DNA of 64,000 nt from Pseudomonadota bacterium (lineage in GTDB: Bacteria > Pseudomonadota > Gammaproteobacteria > Burkholderiales > Chitinibacteraceae). Shown in pieces: positions 20,572 to 32,797 of the stretch. The number at the start of each line of letters is the position of its first letter. The first letter of the stretch is position 1. The stretch covers positions 1-64,000 of the forward strand of contig JAGTRM010000011.1 of NCBI GenBank assembly GCA_018261735.1, given 5' to 3'. The translations under genes and the position numbers were made by a program. The notes beneath the pieces were generated by a model. That model saw only the letters and a program-made list of their open reading frames with translations. It was not told the origin of the DNA and did no database searches.

Positions 20572-22340
20572 TACTTGCCCCACGAATCCTTCAGCGTCAC
20601 CGTTCTGTTGAACACGATCTTGCCCGCGCCGTGATCCTTGCGGTCGGCAACGAAATAGCCGTGGCGCTCGAACTGGAAGCTCACTCCGGCCTTGGCTTGT
20701 GCAAGACCCGGTTCGACAAACGCGGTGACAACCTGCTTGCTATTTGGATTCAGGGCATCGAGGAAGTTGCGGCCACCGGCATCGGGCTGCGCCTCCACGA
20801 ACAGGCGGTCGTACAGGCGCACTTCGGCGGCCAGTCCTTCGCTCGCGGATACCCAGGTGATCACGCCCTTGACCTTGACGCTGTCCGCGCCCGGCGTGCC
20901 GCTCTTGGTATCGGGAACGATCTCGGCCAGCACGGCGGTCACGTTGCCGTCGGCATCCTTCTCGCAGCCAGTGCACTTGATCACGTAACCGTACTTGAGT
21001 CGCGCCATGTTTTCCGGGAACAGGCGGCGGAAACCCTTTTCCGGCACTTCCTGGAAATCCTCGCGCTCGATCCATATTTCGCGGGTCAGATTGAATTCGC
21101 GGCGGCCCATCTCCTCGTGGTGCGGGTGCACCGGAGCGGAACATGGCTCGGCATGATTCGCGCCAAACAGCGCATCCCAGTTGGTCAGCTTCAGCTTCAG
21201 CGGATCGAGCACGACCATCGCGCGCGCGGCTTTTTCTTCCAGATCATCGCGCTGCGCGCCTTCCAGGATCGAATAGTCGATCCAGGTATCGGCCTTGGTC
21301 ACGCCGATGCGGTCGCAGAACAGGCGGATCGCTTCCGGTGTGTAGCCGCGACGGCGCAGGCCAACAATGGTCGGCATGCGCGGATCGTCCCAGCCTTCGA
21401 CGTGATTTTCGGTGACGAGCTGCATCAGCTTGCGCTTGCTGGTGATCACGTAAGTCAGGTTCAGGCGGGCGAATTCGTACTGGTGCGGCAGCGGATCGGC
21501 GAGCAGGCCGCCTTCGGCCAAACGCGCGAGCAGCCAGTCGTAGAACGGGCGCTGGTCTTCGAATTCCAGCGTGCAGATCGAATGGGTGATCTGCTCCAGC
21601 GCATCCTCGATTGGATGGGCGAAGGTGTACATCGGGTACACGCACCATGCGTTGCCAGTACGGTGATGCTCGGCATGGCGGATGCGGTAGATCGCCGGAT
21701 CGCGCATATTGATGTTCGGAGAAGCCATGTCGATCTTGGCGCGCAGCACCATGCTGCCATCGGCATGCTTGCCGTCGCGCATTTCATGGAACAGCGCCAG
21801 CGATTCGGCTGCCGGGCGGTTGCGGAATGGGCTATCGGTGCCGGGCGTGGTGAAATCGCCACGATTGGCGCGCATCTCTTCGGCTGTTTGCTGGTCGATA
21901 TAGGCGTGACCGGCTTCGATCAGGTATTCGGCGGCGCGGAACATGAAGCCGAAGTAATCGCTGGCGTGGAACAGGTGGCTCTGGCCGAACTTGTCCCAAC
22001 CGAAACCCAGCCACTGGATCGCATCCAGGATCGAATCGACGTATTCCTGGTCTTCCTTTTCCGGGTTGGTATCGTCAAAGCGCATGTGGCAGACGCCATC
22101 GTAATCGCGCGCCAGACCGAAGTTCAGGCAGATCGACTTGGCATGGCCCACATGCAGGTAGCCGTTGGGCTCCGGCGGAAAACGGGTGCGGATCTTGGCC
22201 GGATCGGCCACGCCGGCAGCATGACTGGCGGCATCGCCGGGACCACCGCCCCAGCGGCGGCTGGCGAACTTGTTGGCGGCGAGGTCCGCATCGATGATAT
22301 TGCGGAGGAAATTGCTGACGACGGGTGTTTCTGCGTTCAT
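20571..22340 (-). CDS. glnS: glutaminyl-tRNA synthetase
   Basis: Class I aminoacyl-tRNA synthetase that charges tRNA-Gln. The predicted 589 residues contain the HIGH motif as HVGHA within PPEPNGYLHVGHAKS, the KMSKS-equivalent region as VITSKRKL, and C-terminal anticodon-binding beta-barrels ending in FNRTVTLKDSW. I used the ATG at 22340 (MNAETPVV) rather than one nine codons upstream. It is the last host-like gene before the A+T-rich cluster. Confidence 0.97.
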   Translation of the reverse strand: MNAETPVVSNFLRNIIDADLAANKFASRRWGGGPGDAASHAAGVADPAKIRTRFPPEPNGYLHVGHAKSICLNFGLARDYDGVCHMRFDDTNPEKEDQEYVDSILDAIQWLGFGWDKFGQSHLFHASDYFGFMFRAAEYLIEAGHAYIDQQTAEEMRANRGDFTTPGTDSPFRNRPAAESLALFHEMRDGKHADGSMVLRAKIDMASPNINMRDPAIYRIRHAEHHRTGNAWCVYPMYTFAHPIEDALEQITHSICTLEFEDQRPFYDWLLARLAEGGLLADPLPHQYEFARLNLTYVITSKRKLMQLVTENHVEGWDDPRMPTIVGLRRRGYTPEAIRLFCDRIGVTKADTWIDYSILEGAQRDDLEEKAARAMVVLDPLKLKLTNWDALFGANHAEPCSAPVHPHHEEMGRREFNLTREIWIEREDFQEVPEKGFRRLFPENMARLKYGYVIKCTGCEKDADGNVTAVLAEIVPDTKSGTPGADSVKVKGVITWVSASEGLAAEVRLYDRLFVEAQPDAGGRNFLDALNPNSKQVVTAFVEPGLAQAKAGVSFQFERHGYFVADRKDHGAGKIVFNRTVTLKDSWGK

Positions 22341-22483
22341 GGCGGGAATCTTGTTATATGAAACCAAAACGCGATTCTACCGGAAGCGCGGAGCAGAGTG
22401 CGCAAGGCGCACCAAGCGAAACGGTGTGGCACCACAGCCAGACAGCAAAATCTGAACAGCAGGCGGAAACGAACACACAAAAT

Positions 22484-22513
22484 GGGGCGGCCATGGCACA
22501 CCAACGCCGCCCC
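22484..22513 (-). terminator. terminator-like hairpin at the end of the sugar-acid operon
   Basis: GGGGCGG and CCGCCCC arms around a 16-base loop, followed on the minus strand by ATTTTGTGTG. It lies 67-96 bp after the stop of the last gene of the cluster. The U-run is short, so confidence is moderate. The rest of the 239-bp gap between glnS and the cluster shows no gene. Confidence 0.4.
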
Positions 22514-22579
22514 GAGATTCACTGAAAAACCTGCTTATCACTAAAAACGATCAATTCTAACCAACAACCCAATTTCATT

Positions 22580-23848
22580 TCAGCGATATTCTCGCCCAAT
22601 AAAATTCCAAAAGGTTTTTCCCAACCAGTTTTCCAAATCGCGGGAGATCTCTTCCTTGGTCAGTTTCCATCCTGTATCCAGCAAATCTTTGTATTTATCA
22701 AACAACACCTTCTGCATGATGGTTTTTGAGTGACTCCATTTGTAGATCAGCTGATCGATCACCCGCGCATCCGAGTGTTGTGGAACAAAAGAAAAACCCA
22801 ATGTTTCCATTCGCATTCTGGTCATGTCTTCGATAATGACCGGATTGTTTAAAAACCACCAGCAGCCAAACAGCAACAGGTTCCTGAATTTTCTTGCCAG
22901 GATACAAAGCTCGTGCTGATTTTCCCGGGAAAGCATCGTAACGAGGAATTTATTGTCGGGCCACGCTCGGCACAAGTTCTCGATAGCGGTCACATTGGAT
23001 TTTCCAACACTACTGCCAGCAACCCTTATTTTCGGGTTTACCGCCGGTTTGGCGCCTACCATCAAGGCAAAAGACAATCCCAGTTCTTTACAAATCGGCA
23101 GGATACATTCGTTTATGCACCTCCCTCGGGATGTATCTTCTGGATAGAAAAAATCCGGTGGCAGTGAAACCGCCACATACAAGGCATCAATCTTTTGGAC
23201 CCAATCGGTTAAGAACCGCTTGATTTCGCTGATTGATTTATCGTTCAGAGTTTCTTCTACGGCATACCCCCACTCAACCAGGCGCCGAGATGTATTTTTA
23301 TAATCATTTAGCAAGGGATCAAGCCTTAATACCGCCTTGAATCTTGCATCCTTATTCCCGACGGACTCCCAAAAACCACGTTCAACATCATCAAACGGAT
23401 CATTGGTCATGACCACATCCTTGATTCCGGCCAGTTCAAATACCTTGCCAATATAATCATGATGATTCAAGGAAGAGAAATATTTCCGGTAGGCGGATAA
23501 ATCACGCGCAGCGACATCCAAATCCAGCTTATTCAGTATCGTCAGCAATCCGCGTGCAGCTTCGCTAACCGGTGAGTTCTCGACAAAAAGCTTATCCCAA
23601 ATAAGCTCTGCCTGCCTGGACTTTGGCAAATCAAAGAAAGCGTCGTAATCCATATCAGAAAAACGAAAATACTCAGCCACAAGGTAATGGTAAGTCAACA
23701 ACTCATCAATACCCCATAATGACAATTCCTTGAAGGCTTCCGGGTAAATGTGAGTATGAATATCCGTTATTTCCACGGCATCCATTATCTCACCCAGAAC
23801 CGTCTGCAAATCTTCAGTGCTTACATGCTCGACATTCATCTTCATCAT
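22580..23848 (-). CDS. uronate isomerase-like amidohydrolase (UxaC family, BH0493-like size)
   Basis: 422 residues of the amidohydrolase-superfamily uronate isomerase branch. The metal/active-site features are DIHTHIYPEAF near the N-terminus (H31, H33), a WGIDELLTYHYL segment typical of UxaC, WWFLNNP, and QHSDAR (D360) near the C-terminus. UxaC enzymes isomerise D-glucuronate or D-galacturonate to the keto-uronates. The length resembles the B. halodurans BH0493 type more than the longer E. coli type (comparison from memory). It is the last gene of the minus-strand cluster, 44 bp after the enolase-superfamily gene. The family is well supported; the substrate is inferred. Confidence 0.75.
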   Translation of the reverse strand: MMKMNVEHVSTEDLQTVLGEIMDAVEITDIHTHIYPEAFKELSLWGIDELLTYHYLVAEYFRFSDMDYDAFFDLPKSRQAELIWDKLFVENSPVSEAARGLLTILNKLDLDVAARDLSAYRKYFSSLNHHDYIGKVFELAGIKDVVMTNDPFDDVERGFWESVGNKDARFKAVLRLDPLLNDYKNTSRRLVEWGYAVEETLNDKSISEIKRFLTDWVQKIDALYVAVSLPPDFFYPEDTSRGRCINECILPICKELGLSFALMVGAKPAVNPKIRVAGSSVGKSNVTAIENLCRAWPDNKFLVTMLSRENQHELCILARKFRNLLLFGCWWFLNNPVIIEDMTRMRMETLGFSFVPQHSDARVIDQLIYKWSHSKTIMQKVLFDKYKDLLDTGWKLTKEEISRDLENWLGKTFWNFIGREYR

Positions 23849-23892
23849 GATTATCCATTTAGCTGTCTACAACCGTTTAACTCACACGACAA

Positions 23893-25011
23893 TTACAATT
23901 CGATAACCTTATGAGATACACATTGGCGTTCGATCAGCTCCCAATCAAGCTCAACTCCCACGCCGGGCCCTTCCGGAACGGTTATGATGCCTTGTTCGTT
24001 AATAGGCAACTTCCCTTTCATCGGCAATTGGAAATTATCTTCAGGTACGAAATACTCAAAATATTCGCAGTTGCGGATCGCGCAGGATACATGGAGATTG
24101 ACAATATCCATGTAATTCATTGTTGTTGTATGGATTTCGCATCTCAAACCAAAAGCTTCTGCCAAGTGTGCGATTTTCAAAGTTCCTGTAATTCCGTTCT
24201 TCCACGAAACATCAGCCCTGACAATATCAGCCGAATGCTGCGCGATGGATTGAGCAACACCCCAGTGACAGCCACGCGTGGTTTCCGTCGCAGCAATTGG
24301 AATATCCAAGGTCTTGCATAGTTCGGTGTATTTATACAATTCAAAATCCCTGAACGGCTCTTCAAACCACAGATAATTCAACTTTTCCAATTGCCTGCCA
24401 ACCTTGATTGCCTCATCCAAACTGTATTCAGCAACGGGATCCGTGAGCAATATAAAGTCATCACCCACAGCTTCGCGTAGCGCTTGGTGAATCCGCATAT
24501 CCTTTTCAACGGGTCCAGGCGGGTGCGCCTTGTAGGCACGGATGCCGGCAGCCTTGTAACGCAGGGCTTCTTCAACGTATTCATCAACGGTGTCATGAAA
24601 AAGTCCACTGGCATAAACAGGTAACGTTTTCCGGTATGCGCCAAGATATTTATACAGCGGCAACCCGGCTGCTTTGGCCGCAATATCCCACAACGCCACA
24701 TCAACCGGACCGGTCAAATACACAGGAAAGAAGGCTAAATGTCTGTCGATATTCCACAACTCTTGCCAAATAGCTTCTCTATCGTGAGGGTCTCGCCCCA
24801 GCAATATAGGCCCCACATTTTCTTGAAGATAGGCTTCCGTTACCGTGCCAGACCGAGCAGCCAAGGCGGTTGCCAATCCCTCGATGCCATTGTCAGTTGT
24901 TATTTTCAAGACAACAACATCCCATGGCATGCTGCTTTTGCCTTGCCTTTTTTTATCAAAAAGACATTGATCTCGTTTAACCCACCACGTTTCGAATTTG
25001 ACAATCTTCAC
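23893..25011 (-). CDS. enolase-superfamily acid-sugar dehydratase (mandelate racemase subgroup)
   Basis: 372 residues with a complete mandelate-racemase-type site: a KxH pair (K161, H163) on the second barrel strand, metal ligands D191, E217/E218 (FEEP) and E243, an Asp-His dyad D267 and H294, and a Glu-rich eighth strand. These enzymes abstract the proton alpha to a carboxylate and usually dehydrate aldonates or aldarates to 2-keto-3-deoxy acids. KxH in place of the more familiar KxK points to a particular substrate class I cannot name. It lies between the UxaC-like and UxaA-like genes, which suggests two parallel dehydration routes or two substrates. Confidence 0.8.
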   Translation of the reverse strand: MKIVKFETWWVKRDQCLFDKKRQGKSSMPWDVVVLKITTDNGIEGLATALAARSGTVTEAYLQENVGPILLGRDPHDREAIWQELWNIDRHLAFFPVYLTGPVDVALWDIAAKAAGLPLYKYLGAYRKTLPVYASGLFHDTVDEYVEEALRYKAAGIRAYKAHPPGPVEKDMRIHQALREAVGDDFILLTDPVAEYSLDEAIKVGRQLEKLNYLWFEEPFRDFELYKYTELCKTLDIPIAATETTRGCHWGVAQSIAQHSADIVRADVSWKNGITGTLKIAHLAEAFGLRCEIHTTTMNYMDIVNLHVSCAIRNCEYFEYFVPEDNFQLPMKGKLPINEQGIITVPEGPGVGVELDWELIERQCVSHKVIEL

Positions 25012-25067
25012 AATGCATCCCCTAAATCATTCAGCCAGAATTGGTGGAAGTGAAATTCAGATATTTA

Positions 25068-26252
25068 TCAGGCAAATTGGCAACTGGTCTTGTCGAAATC
25101 AAAGTCTTTGTAGGTCAAAACAAACTCGGCATGCCCGACTTTTTCTGCCTTTGTTTTCTCCCCAGAAACAACATCAACAACCAGATTCACTATTTCGTCC
25201 GCAATTACATCAAGGCTCAAACCATCGCTGATTATTTTTCCCGCATTAATATCCATATCCCCGTGCAAATTCTTATAGGTTACCGGGTTGTTGCATACTT
25301 TTATGACGGGAGATATAACAGAGCCAATTACAGAACCGCGCCCCGTGGTAAACAACACCATATGGCAGCCTGTTGCAATCAACTCGATAATTTCCGAGGT
25401 ATCACATATGTTCGGATACCCAAAGCGAGGTTCACCATCCGGAACGACATCCATCAAATAAAGCCCGGGACCTGTTGGGCGCTGGGTGGGTCTAATTACT
25501 CCAGTTATCTTGCCATTACCGGATTTTGCATAAGCACCGAGCGATTTTTCTTCAAGTGTCGTCAACCCGCCTTCTGCATTACCATTTGAAAAACTCCCCA
25601 GCCCCATCGTTGAGTAGTAATTTCTGGCTTTGAGCATGGCTTGATCAATATCTTCCTTAACCTGATCGTTAGCCGCTCTACTCATCATGTGCGGCTCGCA
25701 CCCGATAAGTTCGCCACTTTCTTCAAATATGCAAATGGCATTACTGGCAAGCAATTTATCGAAGGCTCGCCCCACTGCAGGATTCCCTGTAATACCACTG
25801 GTACCATCAGAACCGCCACAGACCGTGCCGATAATCAGATCACTGAAGGCCATATTTCGCCGCTCGGTCTTTGATATTTCTCTTACCATGTCCTCAACGA
25901 TCAATCGGCCTTTGGATATTGTCGCGCTAGTGCCCCCTTCTTCTTGAATAACCAGAGTATGGCAAATTCGGCCAGACTCATTTATGTCTTTTTCAAGACG
26001 TTTCCGATCAAAACACTCGCAACCAAGCGAGACAAGCAATACAGCGCCGACATTTGAATGCGTGCAAAGCCTCTCAACCAGGCGATAACCGTAATCCGAG
26101 GGATAACATCCCGGGAATCCAAAATATTGCACATCATCGGAAAACGACTCGGAAATTTTCTTCGCCACATGGTGTGCACACTCGACAAGGAATACTACCT
26201 GTACGGTATTTCGTATTCCAAGTTGTCCATCTTTCCGTAAGTAACCTAACAT
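25068..26252 (-). CDS. UxaA-family dehydratase, large (C-terminal) subunit
   Basis: 394 residues matching the large domain of altronate/galactarate dehydratases. It starts GYLRKDGQLGIRN, has PGCYPSD, SLGCECF and TVCGGSDGTSGITGNPA segments with conserved Cys and Gly, and a late TTGRGSVIGS loop. In E. coli UxaA this follows a small SAF domain in one polypeptide; here the SAF domain is a separate gene 23 bp upstream. The likely reaction is dehydration of a hexonate such as altronate to 2-keto-3-deoxygluconate. The same two-gene form also occurs in sulfolactate sulfo-lyase (SuyAB), which is the main alternative. The uronate-type neighbours favour a sugar acid. Confidence 0.8.
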   Translation of the reverse strand: MLGYLRKDGQLGIRNTVQVVFLVECAHHVAKKISESFSDDVQYFGFPGCYPSDYGYRLVERLCTHSNVGAVLLVSLGCECFDRKRLEKDINESGRICHTLVIQEEGGTSATISKGRLIVEDMVREISKTERRNMAFSDLIIGTVCGGSDGTSGITGNPAVGRAFDKLLASNAICIFEESGELIGCEPHMMSRAANDQVKEDIDQAMLKARNYYSTMGLGSFSNGNAEGGLTTLEEKSLGAYAKSGNGKITGVIRPTQRPTGPGLYLMDVVPDGEPRFGYPNICDTSEIIELIATGCHMVLFTTGRGSVIGSVISPVIKVCNNPVTYKNLHGDMDINAGKIISDGLSLDVIADEIVNLVVDVVSGEKTKAEKVGHAEFVLTYKDFDFDKTSCQFA

Positions 26253-26275
26253 GTTGTTACCTTCTGCAAATTAAT

Positions 26276-26554
26276 TTAACGATGGAAACCGATAATGTAA
26301 TCACTGACCAGATTCTGTGTGTGAATATGCTCGCCTCTAAGTATTGGCTTTGTCGCAGAACCAATTGCAGCGCCGTATTTATAAACTTTCGAACCCGTAC
26401 TGATATTACTGACAGCCATTTTGTGACCGATGGATATATCATCCAGCGCCGTGAGAATATTCCCTTCAAACGCCACCAAATCTCCCTTGCATATATCCAT
26501 CAGAGCAACGGCGCAATTATCATCACCGTGCAGTAACAAAGCCTTTTTACTCAT
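26276..26554 (-). CDS. UxaA-family dehydratase, small SAF-domain subunit
   Basis: 92 residues forming a SAF domain: MSKKALLLHGDDNCAVAL, a GHKMAVSNI segment, VYKYGAAIG and a final HIHTQNL-type motif, all typical of the N-terminus of altronate/galactarate dehydratases and of SuyA. I chose the ATG at 26554 because GAGGTG lies 7 bases upstream; a start 13 codons earlier has no such site. It is 28 bp after the SDR gene and 23 bp before the large subunit, so the two should be made together. Confidence 0.82.
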   Translation of the reverse strand: MSKKALLLHGDDNCAVALMDICKGDLVAFEGNILTALDDISIGHKMAVSNISTGSKVYKYGAAIGSATKPILRGEHIHTQNLVSDYIIGFHR

Positions 26555-26582
26555 AGAACACCTCACATTTTTACCGGATTTA

Positions 26583-27347
26583 TCAAAATCCAATCAATGC
26601 GCCACCATCAACAACCAGGACATGGCCATTGACAAATTTTGCAGCATCGCTTGCAAGGTAGCATGCTGCCCAGCCAATATCTTCAGGCGAACCGAAGCAC
26701 TTCATCGGAGTACGACCAAGAATTTTGTTCTTTCGCTCATCATCCCCGGAAATTGCCTTTCTCAGCATTGGCGTATCGATCCAGCCGGGCGCAATGCCAT
26801 TTACACGTACGCCATTCGGAGCCAGCTCGGTTGCAAGCCCACGAATCAATCCCAGGTAGGCCGATTTTGCTGCGGAATAACCGGCAACATTTGGCATTCC
26901 CATGAAGGAAGTCATCGATGCCGTGAAAAGAACGCATGCCTTTCCTTGCTTCTTCAAATGGGGAACCAAAGCTTTAGTGACGGAAAACGCCCCAACCACA
27001 TGAACATCAAGTACCGATTCAAAATCAGCAACAGTCATGTCTTCGATGGTTTTCTTGCAATGATTGCCGGCATTGTTAACCAGGATATCAATCGTCTTGT
27101 GCTCGTGAATAAGATCGGAAACCCACTGCTCGGTTTTATCCGTATTCACTACATTAAATTGGGACCAGTACGCTTTAGGTCCAAGACTCTGCGCCGCGCT
27201 TTTTGCTTTCTCTGCATCCAGATCGGCAATGATGACTTTGGCCCCGCTTGATATCATGCACTGAGCCATCGCGTACCCCAACCCGCTGGCCGCACCAGTG
27301 ATCAGGGCTGTTTTTCCTTCCAAAGAAAATGCATTTGCGTTCGACAT
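26583..27347 (-). CDS. SDR family NAD(P)-dependent oxidoreductase
   Basis: 254-residue classical short-chain dehydrogenase. The cofactor motif is TGAASGLG (17-24), followed by NNAG (91-94), the catalytic Ser144, Y157-xxx-K161, and the PGWIDTPM segment. An Asp after the second strand (ADLD near residue 42) suggests NAD preference. By context it may reduce the keto-uronate made by the UxaC-like enzyme, replacing UxaB/UxuB, or oxidise an entering sugar acid (gluconate 5-dehydrogenase and KduD are similar SDRs). It is 28 bp upstream of the SAF-domain gene. Confidence 0.8.
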   Translation of the reverse strand: MSNANAFSLEGKTALITGAASGLGYAMAQCMISSGAKVIIADLDAEKAKSAAQSLGPKAYWSQFNVVNTDKTEQWVSDLIHEHKTIDILVNNAGNHCKKTIEDMTVADFESVLDVHVVGAFSVTKALVPHLKKQGKACVLFTASMTSFMGMPNVAGYSAAKSAYLGLIRGLATELAPNGVRVNGIAPGWIDTPMLRKAISGDDERKNKILGRTPMKCFGSPEDIGWAACYLASDAAKFVNGHVLVVDGGALIGF

Positions 27348-27436
27348 GGTAAATCCTTTAATTAGTGTAATACCGAGCCAATATTTTTAAAAAAAGGTCA
27401 CATCAACACTAAAACAGAAAATTTATTGTTGATGCA

Positions 27437-28129
27437 CTACATGATGCCAAATGTTTCAAAAGCTTCTACTGTCGGCATCCCTTTTTGAAGGGCTTTTAGC
27501 ACCTTGTTCTCGCCTTTTGCTTTTTCAAGCGCACCAGAAAAAGCTTCTTCAGCCTTATCAGACGGAATAACCAGAATGCCATCACGATCGCCGAATATAA
27601 TGTCGCCGTTATTGATGCGGACACCATCAATTTCAATCGGAACACGCCAATCAACAACCTTGCCGCGTGGCCCTTGGTCTTGGGCGTAACTACCAACAGA
27701 GGCAACAGGAAATCCAAGGCGCTCAATCTCGTTGGAGTCTCGGTGATATCCATAGACCACTGCACCCGCCGCCCCACATTTCATTGCACGGGTAGACATC
27801 AGGCCACCCCACAGGGCATAACAGTGCGAAGAGCCGGTACAGATATAGACTTCGTTTTTTTTCAAATCGTCCAGCGCTTCAAACATCAATCCGAATGGGC
27901 GATTTGAAACTGGTGAATTACCCTCGACTTTTTCGGCAAAATAATCAGCTTCAAGAACCGGCATTGCACGCCCGATGATTACCATATTGTTTTGAATAGG
28001 TTTCAATTTTGCAGGCAGAAACTGATGCTGGCATCCCATTTTGTCTAGAACATCGCCAACAAGTGCAACAAAAAGTTTCTCTTTTACCAATGCAAAGAGT
28101 TCATCGTCATTTTTCCAAAGGTTACTCAT
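27437..28129 (-). CDS. RraA-like aldolase/decarboxylase family protein
   Basis: 230 residues of the RraA/HMG-aldolase fold. It shows the FVALVGDVLDKMG start, an ALWGGLMSTRAMKCGAAGAVV segment (residues 105-125, with R114), the acidic RD pair (R130-D131) and GDIIFGDRDGILVIP. Relatives with this metal-binding pattern cleave 4-hydroxy-4-methyl-2-oxoglutarate-type oxo-acids or decarboxylate oxaloacetate. By context it may split the 2-keto-3-deoxy acid produced by the dehydratases. It precedes the SDR gene by 89 bp and has a candidate operator upstream. It is not expected to be an RNase E regulator. Confidence 0.75.
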   Translation of the reverse strand: MSNLWKNDDELFALVKEKLFVALVGDVLDKMGCQHQFLPAKLKPIQNNMVIIGRAMPVLEADYFAEKVEGNSPVSNRPFGLMFEALDDLKKNEVYICTGSSHCYALWGGLMSTRAMKCGAAGAVVYGYHRDSNEIERLGFPVASVGSYAQDQGPRGKVVDWRVPIEIDGVRINNGDIIFGDRDGILVIPSDKAEEAFSGALEKAKGENKVLKALQKGMPTVEAFETFGIM

Positions 28130-28171
28130 TTTTTGTCCTTAATATAAAAAGGCTGCCATTGATCGACCCTA

Positions 28172-28206
28172 GAAGGAAGAATGCGCCATACATTCTTTCC
28201 TTTTTA
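28172..28206. repeat. inverted repeat in the leader of the rraA-like gene
   Basis: AAGGAAGAATG and CATTCTTTCCTT form a stem with one bulged base around CGCCATA, followed by TTTTT on the plus strand. It sits 43 bp upstream of the rraA-like start (minus strand), in the 238-bp gap after dctM. It could be a 5'-leader structure or part of a transcript boundary; it is not a clean minus-strand terminator. Confidence 0.35.
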
Positions 28207-28263
28207 CCAAGTGCCATGAATCGCAATCGCCAAACAAATCAATGGGTGTCCCGCACTTGAAAT

Positions 28264-28277
28264 TCGAACATGTTTGA
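28264..28277. promoter_or_regulatory. candidate operator upstream of the rraA-like gene
   Basis: TCGAACATGTTTGA, a 14-bp near-palindrome (12 of 14 positions symmetric) sharing the AACAYGTT core with sites in front of dctP and gntR. It is 135 bp upstream of the rraA-like start. No strong promoter hexamers were found beside it, so it is weaker than the other two. Confidence 0.45.
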
Positions 28278-28367
28278 TACTGCTCTCATTCAGTTTGCGC
28301 AGGATGTGCTCCGCCCGGGCTAGGAAACTAGCCAATTTTCACGACAATTATTGAATGATTTTTTAAA

Positions 28368-29723
28368 TCAGAAAACCTGTGATCCCGTTATCAGGGTGGG
28401 TATCCAGGTTGAAAACCATGGCACATAAGTGACCACAGCCATCACAGCAAATAAAGCACCGTAAAATGGCGTAATGCTCTTCATGACTTGTTCAATGGAT
28501 ACACCGCCGATAGCGCAACCGACAAATTGCGTACCACCGACTGGAGGTGTATTCAAACCCAGTGCGCAATTAAGCAGCATGACGATGCCAAACTGGACTG
28601 GGCCCATGCCCATTTTCAAAGCCAGCGGCAGAAAGAGCGGGGTGCAGATCAGGATAGTTGCAGCCATATCCATGAACGTTCCCAAGAGGAAAAGAATCAA
28701 ATTGATCAGGAAAAACATGACATACGGATTGCTTGTCGTACCAAGCAGCATTTGCGCCGTTCTATCGGGCACTTCAAGAACTGCCATGATGTACTGAAGC
28801 ATCGTACTCACACCGATCAGTAACAATATGATGCCTGTCGTTTTCGCAGCCTTGGCCGTAGCCATCATCAGCTTGTTCCAGTTCATCGTGCGATAACCGA
28901 TGAAAGTCAACAGCAGCGAATAGGTGACCGCAATACCCGCAGCTTCTGTCGCAGTAGTGATCCCCATAATGATGCAGCTAAGAATAATGATGACAACGAA
29001 CATTCCAGGAAGGGCGGCAACGAGAGAGATCAGCACCGCTTTCCATCCCGGAAACTTGTCCAAGATGGTTGAGCCATCACGGAGCGGATACCCTTCTTTC
29101 AGGGCAACCCAGTAGGCGGCACACAGCATGCAAACCATCAGCACAAGCACCGGCAAAACTCCCGCAAACATCAGTTCCCCGATGGAAACACCCTTGCTCA
29201 TGATGTTGGTACCAGCCAACATGCCACTGGTACTCGAGGCGGCAAAGGCATAGATAATCATGTTGTGCGAAGTGGGCATGAGTGCTCCAGCCAAGGCTGC
29301 GTGCGTCGTTACATTGACGGCATAATCTGCACTGTAACCTTCCCTCTTCATCATCGGGATCATGACCCCACCCATCGCGGATACATCCGCCGTAGGGGAG
29401 CCAGAAATTCCACCAAAAATCGTGCATGCCACAACGTTGGCCATACCCAACCCGCCACGCCAGTGGCCAACCATGTTGCGTGCAAAATTGACGATCTTGT
29501 CCGCGATTCCACCATGCAGCATCAATTCCCCGGAAAATATGAAAAAGGGAATGGCCAGGAATGAAAACACATTCATTCCTGAAATCATGTTCTGCAACGC
29601 AAGTTCCAGGGGGAAGCCCTCGACCCAGAATGTGGAAAGGCAACTTAGCGCGATCGCTACCGAAACGGGCAAGCCAAGCAGCAGAAAGAGAAGAAATGTC
29701 AGACAGAGGACGGTTAGTGCCAT
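28368..29723 (-). CDS. dctM: TRAP transporter large permease (DctM type)
   Basis: 451-residue, roughly 12-helix membrane protein carrying the DctM signatures GGISGSPTADVSAMGG (Gly-rich substrate/Na+ loop near residues 104-119) and the late LNTPPVGG motif. It forms the ion-coupled permease of a tripartite ATP-independent periplasmic transporter with DctQ and DctP. Its start overlaps the dctQ end by 10 bp. It lies in the A+T-rich cluster and probably imports the sugar acid that the cluster degrades. Confidence 0.93.
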   Translation of the reverse strand: MALTVLCLTFLLFLLLGLPVSVAIALSCLSTFWVEGFPLELALQNMISGMNVFSFLAIPFFIFSGELMLHGGIADKIVNFARNMVGHWRGGLGMANVVACTIFGGISGSPTADVSAMGGVMIPMMKREGYSADYAVNVTTHAALAGALMPTSHNMIIYAFAASSTSGMLAGTNIMSKGVSIGELMFAGVLPVLVLMVCMLCAAYWVALKEGYPLRDGSTILDKFPGWKAVLISLVAALPGMFVVIIILSCIIMGITTATEAAGIAVTYSLLLTFIGYRTMNWNKLMMATAKAAKTTGIILLLIGVSTMLQYIMAVLEVPDRTAQMLLGTTSNPYVMFFLINLILFLLGTFMDMAATILICTPLFLPLALKMGMGPVQFGIVMLLNCALGLNTPPVGGTQFVGCAIGGVSIEQVMKSITPFYGALFAVMAVVTYVPWFSTWIPTLITGSQVF

Positions 29724-30208
29724 GATGGAATGACCTTCTTATCAGTAAACATCGCAATCAGATGTTCAATTGAAAACAGTATCATCAGAACGCCGGAAAT
29801 GATGACCGGCACATATCGCCATGATTCCCTAATACCCAGAGATGGAATTCTGGTCGGAAAAACAGCGACGGCCATCAGGAGGCCGAGCCAGACAAGTGCG
29901 ATTCCAAAAATAATCGTGAGGTAGCCATTCACATTGCCAATCCAGAATTGCATTTTATCCGGCAGTAAGCCAACCATGGACTCCATGCCGATGTGGCCTT
30001 CATCCCTTATCGCTGCAGCAGCCGCAAACATGGCGACATTGATGACCAACAACAGAGCAACCTGTTCCGACCACGAAGGCGCATTATTCAACCCATAACG
30101 CCAGATCACCGACCCCAAAACTGTGCCAACAATACCCAGAAGGCAAGATACGGCTATATACATGGCCCAACGCGATAGTCGGGCATTAACGCGGGTTAAC
30201 CAATTCAT
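29714..30208 (-). CDS. dctQ: TRAP transporter small permease (DctQ type)
   Basis: 164 residues with four predicted transmembrane helices and the family pattern VIWRYGLNNAPSWSEQVALLL near the second helix. It partners DctM in the membrane. I chose the ATG at 30208, which is preceded by GGGGGAT at a suitable distance; a TTG four codons upstream is less likely. It is 92 bp downstream of dctP and overlaps dctM by 10 bp. Confidence 0.9.
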   Translation of the reverse strand: MNWLTRVNARLSRWAMYIAVSCLLGIVGTVLGSVIWRYGLNNAPSWSEQVALLLVINVAMFAAAAAIRDEGHIGMESMVGLLPDKMQFWIGNVNGYLTIIFGIALVWLGLLMAVAVFPTRIPSLGIRESWRYVPVIISGVLMILFSIEHLIAMFTDKKVIPSWH

Positions 30209-30300
30209 TTTATCCCCCAAGAAGGCAACACAAAGGCACGAAAACTGTGCCCTTGTGTATATGGAAATTACGGTTTGTTTCCACTTCCTGAAACATGCAT

Positions 30301-31281
30301 TTACTTCGTATTAACAATTCTCTGAAGCAGGGATTTTAGTTCCGGAGTGTTTGCATACTTGTCCCAAACCGGCTTTTGTGCATCCGCGAACGATTTGTGG
30401 TTAATTTCGTTTTTCTCAACAAACTTCACACCCTTTTTAATCAGGGTATTCTTCGAATCATCCATCTTTGCAGTCCACAGCTTGACGTAATAAGGCATGG
30501 AGCTTCTGGCTGTTTTACGAATGGCTGCCTGATCTTCCTTGGAGAGGGTATCCCAGACTTTTTTCGAAAAAACCAGCATTTCAGGCGCCATGACATGCTG
30601 AGTTTCGCTATATACAGGCGCCGATTCGTAATGCTTGGCGGTTTCGTAGGAGGGATAATTGTTTTCAGCTGCGTCCACCAGGCCAGTTTTCAGCCCGGTA
30701 TAGAGTTCTGCGTAAGGAATCGGCGTCGCATTTGCACCCAATGCATCCATAACACTCAGCCACATGTCTGATGGAATGACGCGAACCTTCAAGCCCTTCA
30801 TATCCGTAATGGAACGAATTGGTTTCTTGGCATAGAACGAGCGTGACCCCGCTTCATACGTGGACAACGCGACAAATCCAACCTTCTCGAACGAGGCCAG
30901 GATTTCATCACCAATGGGGCCGTACATTACCTTGCGGAAATGCTCAATATCACGGAACAAAAACGGCAGTGTGGGGATAACCGTTTCAGGCAGCATTTGA
31001 TTGAAATCCGTTGCGCTGATCCATGTCATGTCGATGGCACCAATTCTCACCTGCTCAACCGCATCTTTGGCCGAGCCAAGCGTACTGCTTCCATAGACTT
31101 TTACACCGTACTTCCCTTTGGTTTCTGCTGAAAGTTCCTCTCCCATATGCTTCAACGCTACCGACGCCGGATAGTCGAGTGGATGAACGATCGCGGTTCG
31201 AAAATCACGCGCATGCACAGCTGTCATCGCGAATGCGCTCGCCAAAACCAAACCAGATAACGCCTTAATTTTTTGCTTCAC
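30301..31281 (-). CDS. dctP: TRAP transporter solute-binding protein (DctP type)
   Basis: 326 residues with a cleavable signal peptide (MKQKIKALSG..., cut likely after AVHA at about residue 24). The DctP fold includes the conserved ligand-carboxylate Arg in LKVRVIP (R167), a second Arg (R147), and the hinge/helix segment ELYTGLKTGLVDAAENN. Proteins of this kind bind organic or sugar acids in the periplasm, and relatives next to uxaC genes bind uronates. Translation starts at GTG, preceded by GAGGAGAG. It is the first gene of the minus-strand cluster and has a promoter with an overlapping candidate operator. Confidence 0.92.
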   Translation of the reverse strand: MKQKIKALSGLVLASAFAMTAVHARDFRTAIVHPLDYPASVALKHMGEELSAETKGKYGVKVYGSSTLGSAKDAVEQVRIGAIDMTWISATDFNQMLPETVIPTLPFLFRDIEHFRKVMYGPIGDEILASFEKVGFVALSTYEAGSRSFYAKKPIRSITDMKGLKVRVIPSDMWLSVMDALGANATPIPYAELYTGLKTGLVDAAENNYPSYETAKHYESAPVYSETQHVMAPEMLVFSKKVWDTLSKEDQAAIRKTARSSMPYYVKLWTAKMDDSKNTLIKKGVKFVEKNEINHKSFADAQKPVWDKYANTPELKSLLQRIVNTK

Positions 31282-31370
31282 GGTGCTCTCCTCAGAAGGA
31301 ATGAATAGTCAAAACCCCAAAACAGTTGCCCGAAAGATCTAAACAGCGATCATCACTACCAGTAAACCTG

Positions 31371-31384
31371 TTCAACACGTTGAT
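31371..31384. promoter_or_regulatory. candidate operator at the dctP promoter
   Basis: TTCAACACGTTGAT contains the inverted repeat TCAAC-AC-GTTGA (12 of 14 positions symmetric). It lies immediately downstream of the predicted -10 box of the dctP promoter and so covers the likely transcription start, a classic repressor position. The core AACACGTT matches the AACATGTT sites near gntR and rraA. Confidence 0.55.
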
Positions 31385-31412
31385 AGCCTAGCACAAATTC
31401 CGCATAAATCAA
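31385..31412 (-). promoter_or_regulatory. promoter for the dctP operon
   Basis: On the minus strand TTGATT (31407-31412) and TAGGCT (31385-31390) with a 16-bp spacer, 103 bp upstream of the dctP GTG. It directly adjoins the candidate operator. The -10 box is imperfect, so it is probably a moderate promoter. Confidence 0.5.
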
Positions 31413-32003
31413 TCCACTTTTGTTAAAACTTGAGCATCTCTTCATGGGACATAACTAAAACTGATGACCCATCACACCCACAAACGCATGCAACAGGCGA
31501 CTTGCAACCCCATCAAGATGAAGGAGTATCAATATTTGTACCGTTTCGCATCCCAACGCACGGGAATAAAACGATAAAAATCAATGGAATGCGGACAATG
31601 ATCGGCAGATGGATCAATACAACCACGCATCGATCGAGACTGGCGATCAATGTTTTGCCTGTGGCAGTCAGGGATTGAAAAACCTGATAGGAAGTGACGG
31701 GATTTTCGGGTCTTGAATGTAAATACCAGCGCGGTGTCTGCGGAATTTCCTGAAAACGCATTGTCAACACACGATAAGGTTGAAACCAACTTCTTGTCAG
31801 GGGCTCAAGCGAAGGCAGATTCGCGCAAAATCAGCTGCGGCAGGGAGAAAGACTACAGAGATGAATCGGGTCTCTTGAGCGGTTTAACAGCCTGGAATGG
31901 TGGTTGGGTAGCAGAGCAACAGCCAACCAGGGCGGCACCTATTGAGTAGCATTTTCAGCATCTGATGCAGACGAGGGCGCCGGGGTAACTCAAAACAGGC
32001 CGA
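31413..32003. other. non-coding divergent region between dctP and gntR
   Basis: About 590 bp with no gene I can support. Short open frames on both strands (for example minus 31513-31770) lack recognisable homology, convincing ribosome-binding sites and a regular codon pattern. The region may hold further regulatory sites or the remains of a lost gene. Nothing else stands out. Confidence 0.5.
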
Positions 32004-32041
32004 TGAAACATGTTTGACAGGTGGCCATGTTTATATATACT
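32004..32041 (+). promoter_or_regulatory. gntR promoter with overlapping candidate operator
   Basis: A near-consensus promoter: TTGACA (32014-32019), 16 bp, TATACT (32036-32041). The 14-bp near-palindrome TGAAACATGTTTGA (32004-32017) overlaps the -35 box. This geometry suggests the GntR protein represses its own gene. It ends 30 bp before the gntR start. Confidence 0.65.
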
Positions 32042-32071
32042 CGTCTTATGGTTAATTAGAGATCAAAGCTA

Positions 32072-32797
32072 ATGGAAGACTTTGTTGTGCCTGTTATGCA
32101 GCAAAATACCTTGTCATCACAGGTAATCCGCTTTTTATTGGGATTAATATCCGAGAAACGTCTCAAGGTTGGAGATGTTGTCCCGAGCGAAGTAAAAGTA
32201 TCTGAAATGTTGCAAGTCAGTCGTGGCATAGTTCGTGAATCATATCGCGCGCTCGCCACTGTAGGAGTTCTTTCCGTACAAAGCGGAAAACGTCCCCGTA
32301 TTCGGGAAATGGACCCCACGGTACTGGCCCAATTCTTTGCATATGCCGCAGCAACCAGCCAGATAAATGCACAGCAAATTTTTGAGTTACGCCGCGTGAT
32401 TGAAATGCAGGCCGCTGTTCTTGCAACCAAGAATGGAACCGACGAAGATTTAATGCGTATCAGAGAGGCGGGTAAACGTCTTCATGATTACCCGATTTCG
32501 CACCCGGAATGGATCGCTTGCGATTATGCATTGCATATTGCCATCGCCGATGCTGTTCACAACCCCCTGTTCCAAATAATTATACGGGCATTACGCGCGC
32601 CGCTTGAAGAGTCGATGCGCGAAGGAATTGAGAGTCAAGTCAGCATCCATACAGAGATTCATATCGTTGCCCTTCACGATCAAATTGTTGAGGCCATATG
32701 CAATCGTGATGCGGTTGCTGCGAGCAAAGCGATAGAAGAGCACTTTAACGCACCAGTTTCTGCGTTGTTGAAAAAAGGCATCATCAACATCAATTAA
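32072..32797 (+). CDS. GntR-family (FadR subfamily) transcriptional regulator
   Basis: 241 residues: an N-terminal winged helix-turn-helix (about residues 10-75, with VGDVVPSEVKVSEMLQVSRGIVRESYRAL and the wing VQSGKRPRI) and an all-helical FCD ligand domain with Asp/His metal-ligand positions (for example DYALHIAIADAVHN and HDQIVEAI). FadR-type regulators such as UxuR, ExuR and DgoR sense sugar acids and usually repress. It is divergent from the dctP operon and is very probably its regulator, acting at the AACAYGTT palindromes. The gene is A+T-rich like the cluster. Confidence 0.9.
   Translation: MEDFVVPVMQQNTLSSQVIRFLLGLISEKRLKVGDVVPSEVKVSEMLQVSRGIVRESYRALATVGVLSVQSGKRPRIREMDPTVLAQFFAYAAATSQINAQQIFELRRVIEMQAAVLATKNGTDEDLMRIREAGKRLHDYPISHPEWIACDYALHIAIADAVHNPLFQIIIRALRAPLEESMREGIESQVSIHTEIHIVALHDQIVEAICNRDAVAASKAIEEHFNAPVSALLKKGIININ

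Follow-up and report, generated by a model that had tools for sequence, protein, structure and literature searches.

In the 64,000-nucleotide stretch of DNA analysed here (the window), a gene for a GntR-family regulator lies beside a cluster for TRAP-type uptake and catabolism of sugar acids, which raises the question of which sequence this regulator recognizes and which genes it controls. The regulator (32072-32797, plus strand, 241 aa) has the winged helix and the FCD domain of FadR-subfamily GntR proteins, with both matches above the cut-off (PF00392, 5.6e-10; PF07729, 2.4e-20), and its identification is supported by orthologs. It shares these domains and the contact residues with the FadR subfamily (ExuR, DgoR, FadR, GlcC, LldR and PdhR; PMC4494728). 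Its residues Ser50, Arg51, Arg55, Glu56 and Gly72 correspond to HTH positions 37, 38, 42, 43 and 59, and none of them varies among seven homologs; Arg at 38 and 42 and Gly at 59 agree with the FadR-subfamily contacts. In the window, gntR is divergent from dctP, the first gene of the cluster, across a 790-bp spacer (31282-32071).

All cluster genes lie on the minus strand. They encode the solute-binding protein DctP of hexuronate type (30301-31281; PF03480; closest solved structures 4n15, 4n17 and 4mhf), the small TRAP membrane subunit DctQ (29714-30220; PF04290), the large membrane subunit DctM (28368-29723; PF06808), an RraA-like aldolase (27437-28129; PF03737) and a short-chain dehydrogenase (SDR; 26583-27347; PF13561). 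These are followed by the small, SAF-type subunit (26276-26554) and the large subunit (25068-26252; PF20629, PF04295) of an altronate/galactarate dehydratase-like enzyme, an enolase-superfamily sugar-acid dehydratase-like protein (23893-25011; PF13378, PF02746) and, as the last gene of the operon, a BH0493-type uronate isomerase (22580-23848). The SAF-type subunit was called from its open reading frame; it weakly matches the N-terminal part of TIGR03248 and has orthologs at the same place in the two related clusters described below. The isomerase had no Pfam or NCBIfam match and was named after its 4e-160 match to BH0493, itself named uronate isomerase.

DctP matched 4n15 at 3.7e-115 and 4mhf at 1.4e-94, and 4n17 and 4mij were also among its closest TRAP proteins. 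4MHF (Bpro_3107) is reported to bind glucuronate and galacturonate, and 4N15 (Bamb_6123) served as the template for the hexuronate-binding STM3169 of Salmonella (PMC7660916); the window's DctP is predicted to be of this hexuronate type. Since the cluster also contains the BH0493-type isomerase and its counterpart in Propionivibrio dicarboxylicus contains a glucuronate isomerase above the equivalog cut-off, the inducer is likely to be a hexuronate or an early catabolite, and an uncharacterized regulator can thus be assigned a likely substrate class. It probably does the same job as the gammaproteobacterial hexuronate repressors UxuR and ExuR, which repress the breakdown of hexuronates in response to a compound of the pathway. 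Unlike these, it would control a TRAP transporter, and it is a different member of the family, as its scores with the NCBIfam equivalogs PRK10225 (48.7, cut-off 442) and PRK11523 (41.9, cut-off 396) show. A literature search for the motif described below, or for a regulator already named in a TRAP hexuronate cluster of this kind, returned nothing specific.

The earlier note had proposed that the regulator binds three 14-bp near-palindromes with the core AACAYGTT, namely TTCAACACGTTGAT (31371-31384), TGAAACATGTTTGA (32004-32017) and TCGAACATGTTTGA (28264-28277), upstream of dctP, gntR and rraA. All three are present at these positions. The dctP promoter (31385-31412, minus strand), read from the sequence, consists of TTGATT (31412-31407), a 16-bp spacer and TAGGCT (31390-31385), and the first 14-mer directly follows this -10 box, as had been noted. 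This promoter falls below the detection of our consensus scan; the relatives carry TTGACA-16/17-TAATCT/TAGTCT in the same register. The gntR promoter (32014-32041, plus strand) matched the consensus at 11 of 12 positions in that scan (TTGACA 32014-32019, 16 bp, TATACT 32036-32041), and the second 14-mer does overlap its -35 box.

To find out what is conserved here, we compared orthologous clusters. Regulator orthologs occur in P. dicarboxylicus (86% identical) and in a betaproteobacterial MAG (84% identical), and both clusters carry them together with the same TRAP genes, rraA, the SDR and the dehydratase pair. In both relatives gntR stands in tandem upstream of dctP (L006 10001-11901 in P. 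dicarboxylicus; L007 625-3678 in the MAG), and in the MAG a transposase-like frame lies between the two genes. The conserved element was a 15-bp palindrome of FadR type, ACCTGT-N3-ACAGGT, about 5 bp off the AACAYGTT 14-mers, with which it shares 10 bp at both dctP and gntR. In the form ACSTGT-N3-ACAGGT, it is kept at both promoters in all three species and contains the GT-N2/3-AC arrangement of the FadR subfamily. The register was thus set by the comparison of relatives and not by the most visible palindrome, which turns a mis-registered motif into a predicted operator with a defined half-site.

The predicted dctP operator ACGTGTTGAACAGGT (31366-31380, minus strand) has the half-sites ACGTGT and ACAGGT around a 3-bp centre and begins 4 bp past the -10 box; it is conserved in the three species, with ACGTGTTGTACAGGT in P. 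dicarboxylicus and ACGTGTTATACAGGT in the MAG. The predicted gntR operator ACATGTTTGACAGGT (32008-32022, plus strand) includes the -35 box TTGACA, and its position and half-sites are likewise conserved (ACCTGTTGGACAGGT in P. dicarboxylicus, TCCTGTTTGACAGGT in the MAG). In the window's gntR site, and at dctP in each of the three species, one half deviates (ACATGT or ACGTGT). At dctP, 13 of the 15 operator columns are invariant among the three species; upstream of the operator this holds for 11 of 40 columns, and farther downstream for 3 of 48. An extra half-site-like box is found 2 bp past the dctP operator in each species (ACTGGT in the window, 31358-31363, minus strand; ATAGGT in both relatives); additional boxes resembling these have been described at GntR-family sites in PMC4494728.

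When all 14-mers shared by the six promoters were ranked, the 14-mers of the earlier note took places 88 and 890. The palindrome was the best-shared 15-mer, with 11 summed mismatches compared with 20 at best in 60 dinucleotide-shuffled sets, a test that ignores the relatedness of three close species with common promoter ancestry. There is no homology between the dctP promoter and the gntR promoter. We also scanned the 3.78-Mb assembly of the window's own genome with patterns allowing mismatches. Only two places matched ACSTGTTNNACAGGT within one mismatch, 642 bp apart: the dctP site, which is the sole exact match, and the gntR site with one mismatch; this pattern was written after all six sites had been seen, and the four sites of the relatives alone yield the same one. 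The P. dicarboxylicus genome contains both cluster sites and one other place within one mismatch, and the MAG genome five other places. Of the other places in the own genome, with two mismatches, two (G000:C69:68687/68966 and G000:C63:112796) were inspected more closely as candidate operators and rejected; both lie inside long open frames, and therefore we claim no further regulon member. The frame on G000:C69 (L071 1494-4001), with two weak operator-like matches within its coding sequence, resembles a fused pectin methylesterase and pectate lyase and is a possible source of galacturonate; that on G000:C63 resembles an outer-membrane receptor.

FadR-subfamily sites are GT-N3-AC palindromes (PMC4494728). 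Divergent operons that each have an independent site of their own are known in this subfamily, and the window shows the same arrangement. The half-site here is ACAGGT, which has C/G outside its TGT/ACA box, whereas the common FadR-subfamily consensus is the A/T-rich TKGT/ACMA. Leaving aside the supplementary site lists of this paper, the half-site ACAGGT is without description in the literature that we searched. HTH position 28 of the regulator is Val and not Arg, which fits T rather than G at position 6 of the site, and HTH position 39 has been linked to A/T beside the GT/AC boxes, both on the basis of the same paper.

A comparison beyond the close orthologs was possible with a distant homolog in the same order (G213). 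The regulator is rare: a search of 300 genomes surrounding that of the window gave a match in only one other genome, with 32-33% identity. The G213 protein is 33% identical, has the same recognition helix VSRGIVRE and is encoded in an ABC-transporter operon containing an rraA-like gene. This operon carries ACCTGTTGGACAGGT 5 bp past its promoter TTGACA-17-TAGTCT; the site is identical to the gntR operator of P. dicarboxylicus, and no other exact ACCTGT-N3-ACAGGT occurs in the 5.6-Mb genome. No orthologs of the G213 regulator were detected in 249 other genomes. The palindrome is a usable pattern for finding related regulons.

Taken together, these data suggest, with a probability of roughly 0.86, that the FadR-subfamily regulator is a repressor that controls the cluster and its own gene through ACCTGT-N3-ACAGGT operators at dctP and gntR. 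The motif, its position, conservation and rarity and the matching regulator were read from sequence, and from them we infer binding, repression, the direction of effector action and operon read-through. A regulator dimer would bind the palindrome; the dctP copy covers the expected start site and the gntR copy includes the -35 box, so that RNA polymerase would be blocked at both. Both operators occupy blocking positions, which points most naturally to repression and autoregulation, and this part of the earlier proposal, which saw in the sites at dctP and gntR repressor-like positions, is well supported for the hexuronate TRAP-uptake operon. The regulator would keep the TRAP uptake and catabolism operon and gntR repressed; binding of a hexuronate or early catabolite to its FCD domain would then release it from the DNA. 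With its predicted operators, the system would be an ordinary one, a repressor-operator pair of a kind already known.

It is very unlikely that the AACAYGTT core itself is recognized, with its centre between A and Y and three operators at dctP, gntR and rraA. The window contains more copies of the core than expected from shuffles (15 strand-matches compared with 2.86), and the impression behind this proposal was reasonable, since the longer form TNRAACAYGTTYNA is rare and two of its three genome sites (28264 and 32004) are in the cluster, the third being inside secY. The dctP copy does not fit this form; its flanks, TTC/GAT, cannot be aligned with the flanks of the other two copies. The core is not specific: its 15 matches fall in nine places, of which five lie outside the cluster, and the whole assembly has 170 strand-matches compared with 131 for the reversed control. 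It is intact in only one of four orthologous promoters and lacks the GT-N3-AC symmetry of other FadR-subfamily sites. Being frequent elsewhere and not conserved, AACAYGTT fails two tests that the earlier note itself had named, genome rarity and conservation in related clusters, both of which the corrected palindrome passes. Thus FadR-type operators at the dctP start site and the gntR -35 box were correctly located, with a recognition sequence in the wrong register; the third site, at rraA, was not upheld.

Other readings start from the palindrome itself. Binding by the linked regulator is a prediction, and the palindrome could belong to another regulator encoded elsewhere, with gntR merely neighbouring. 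This appears highly improbable, as the palindrome has FadR-subfamily symmetry, is found in three species at the promoter of the regulator gene itself, and recurs at a different operon together with the distant homolog, which shares the recognition helix. Both copies also touch core promoter sequences in three related clusters, and the conserved block could then reflect the promoter or shared ancestry, with no operator at all. We regard this as scarcely credible: conservation peaks on the palindrome and not on the hexamers, and the same palindrome occupies two promoter positions (start site and -35) and also occurs at the distant operon.

The 14-mer upstream of rraA (28264-28277) is most likely a chance match. 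A second half-site of the operator is absent, the best match within 28130-28367 having four mismatches, and the consensus scan gave no promoter-like match in this neighbourhood. Nor does the 14-mer have a counterpart in the relatives, where no comparable dctM-rraA spacer exists: it is about 40 bp in P. dicarboxylicus, and other genes lie in between in the MAG. Transcription of the operon probably starts at the dctP promoter and continues through rraA into the genes beyond it; a separate rraA promoter in the window's 238-bp dctM-rraA gap is possible.

In more divergent orthologs (67-70% identical; G317, G327 and G323), a half-site (ACCTGT or ACAGGT) is retained at gntR or rraA and the centre is changed (ACCTGTAGGTAAGGT, ACCTATCCTACAGGA); at HTH position 39 these proteins have Asn in place of Gly. 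A tie between the changed centre and this Asn is suggestive only. In G323 (67-68%), no clear site was found at its own gntR promoter and only one at rraA. A 30% identical regulator in G436 (L064) has ACTTGTATGATAGGT just upstream of its own gene, likely an operator of the same class. Tentatively, and with somewhat less than even odds, these proteins may form an uncharacterized FadR-subfamily specificity group with the half-site ACAGGT, whose members would control unrelated transporters (TRAP here, ABC in G213) beside RraA-like and enolase-superfamily enzymes, where HTH position 39 would set the operator centre (Gly: TGTT; Asn: TGTA or TAT).

The cluster region (22001-32000) has 46-48% GC and its flanks about 60%. 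Given this low GC content and a regulator missing from nearly all relatives searched, the cluster is probably a horizontally acquired island. At the end of the operon (22580-25011), the window has the enolase-superfamily dehydratase and the BH0493-type isomerase, where the relatives have a classic glucuronate isomerase or an added mannonate dehydratase; it is the same pathway with exchanged enzymes.
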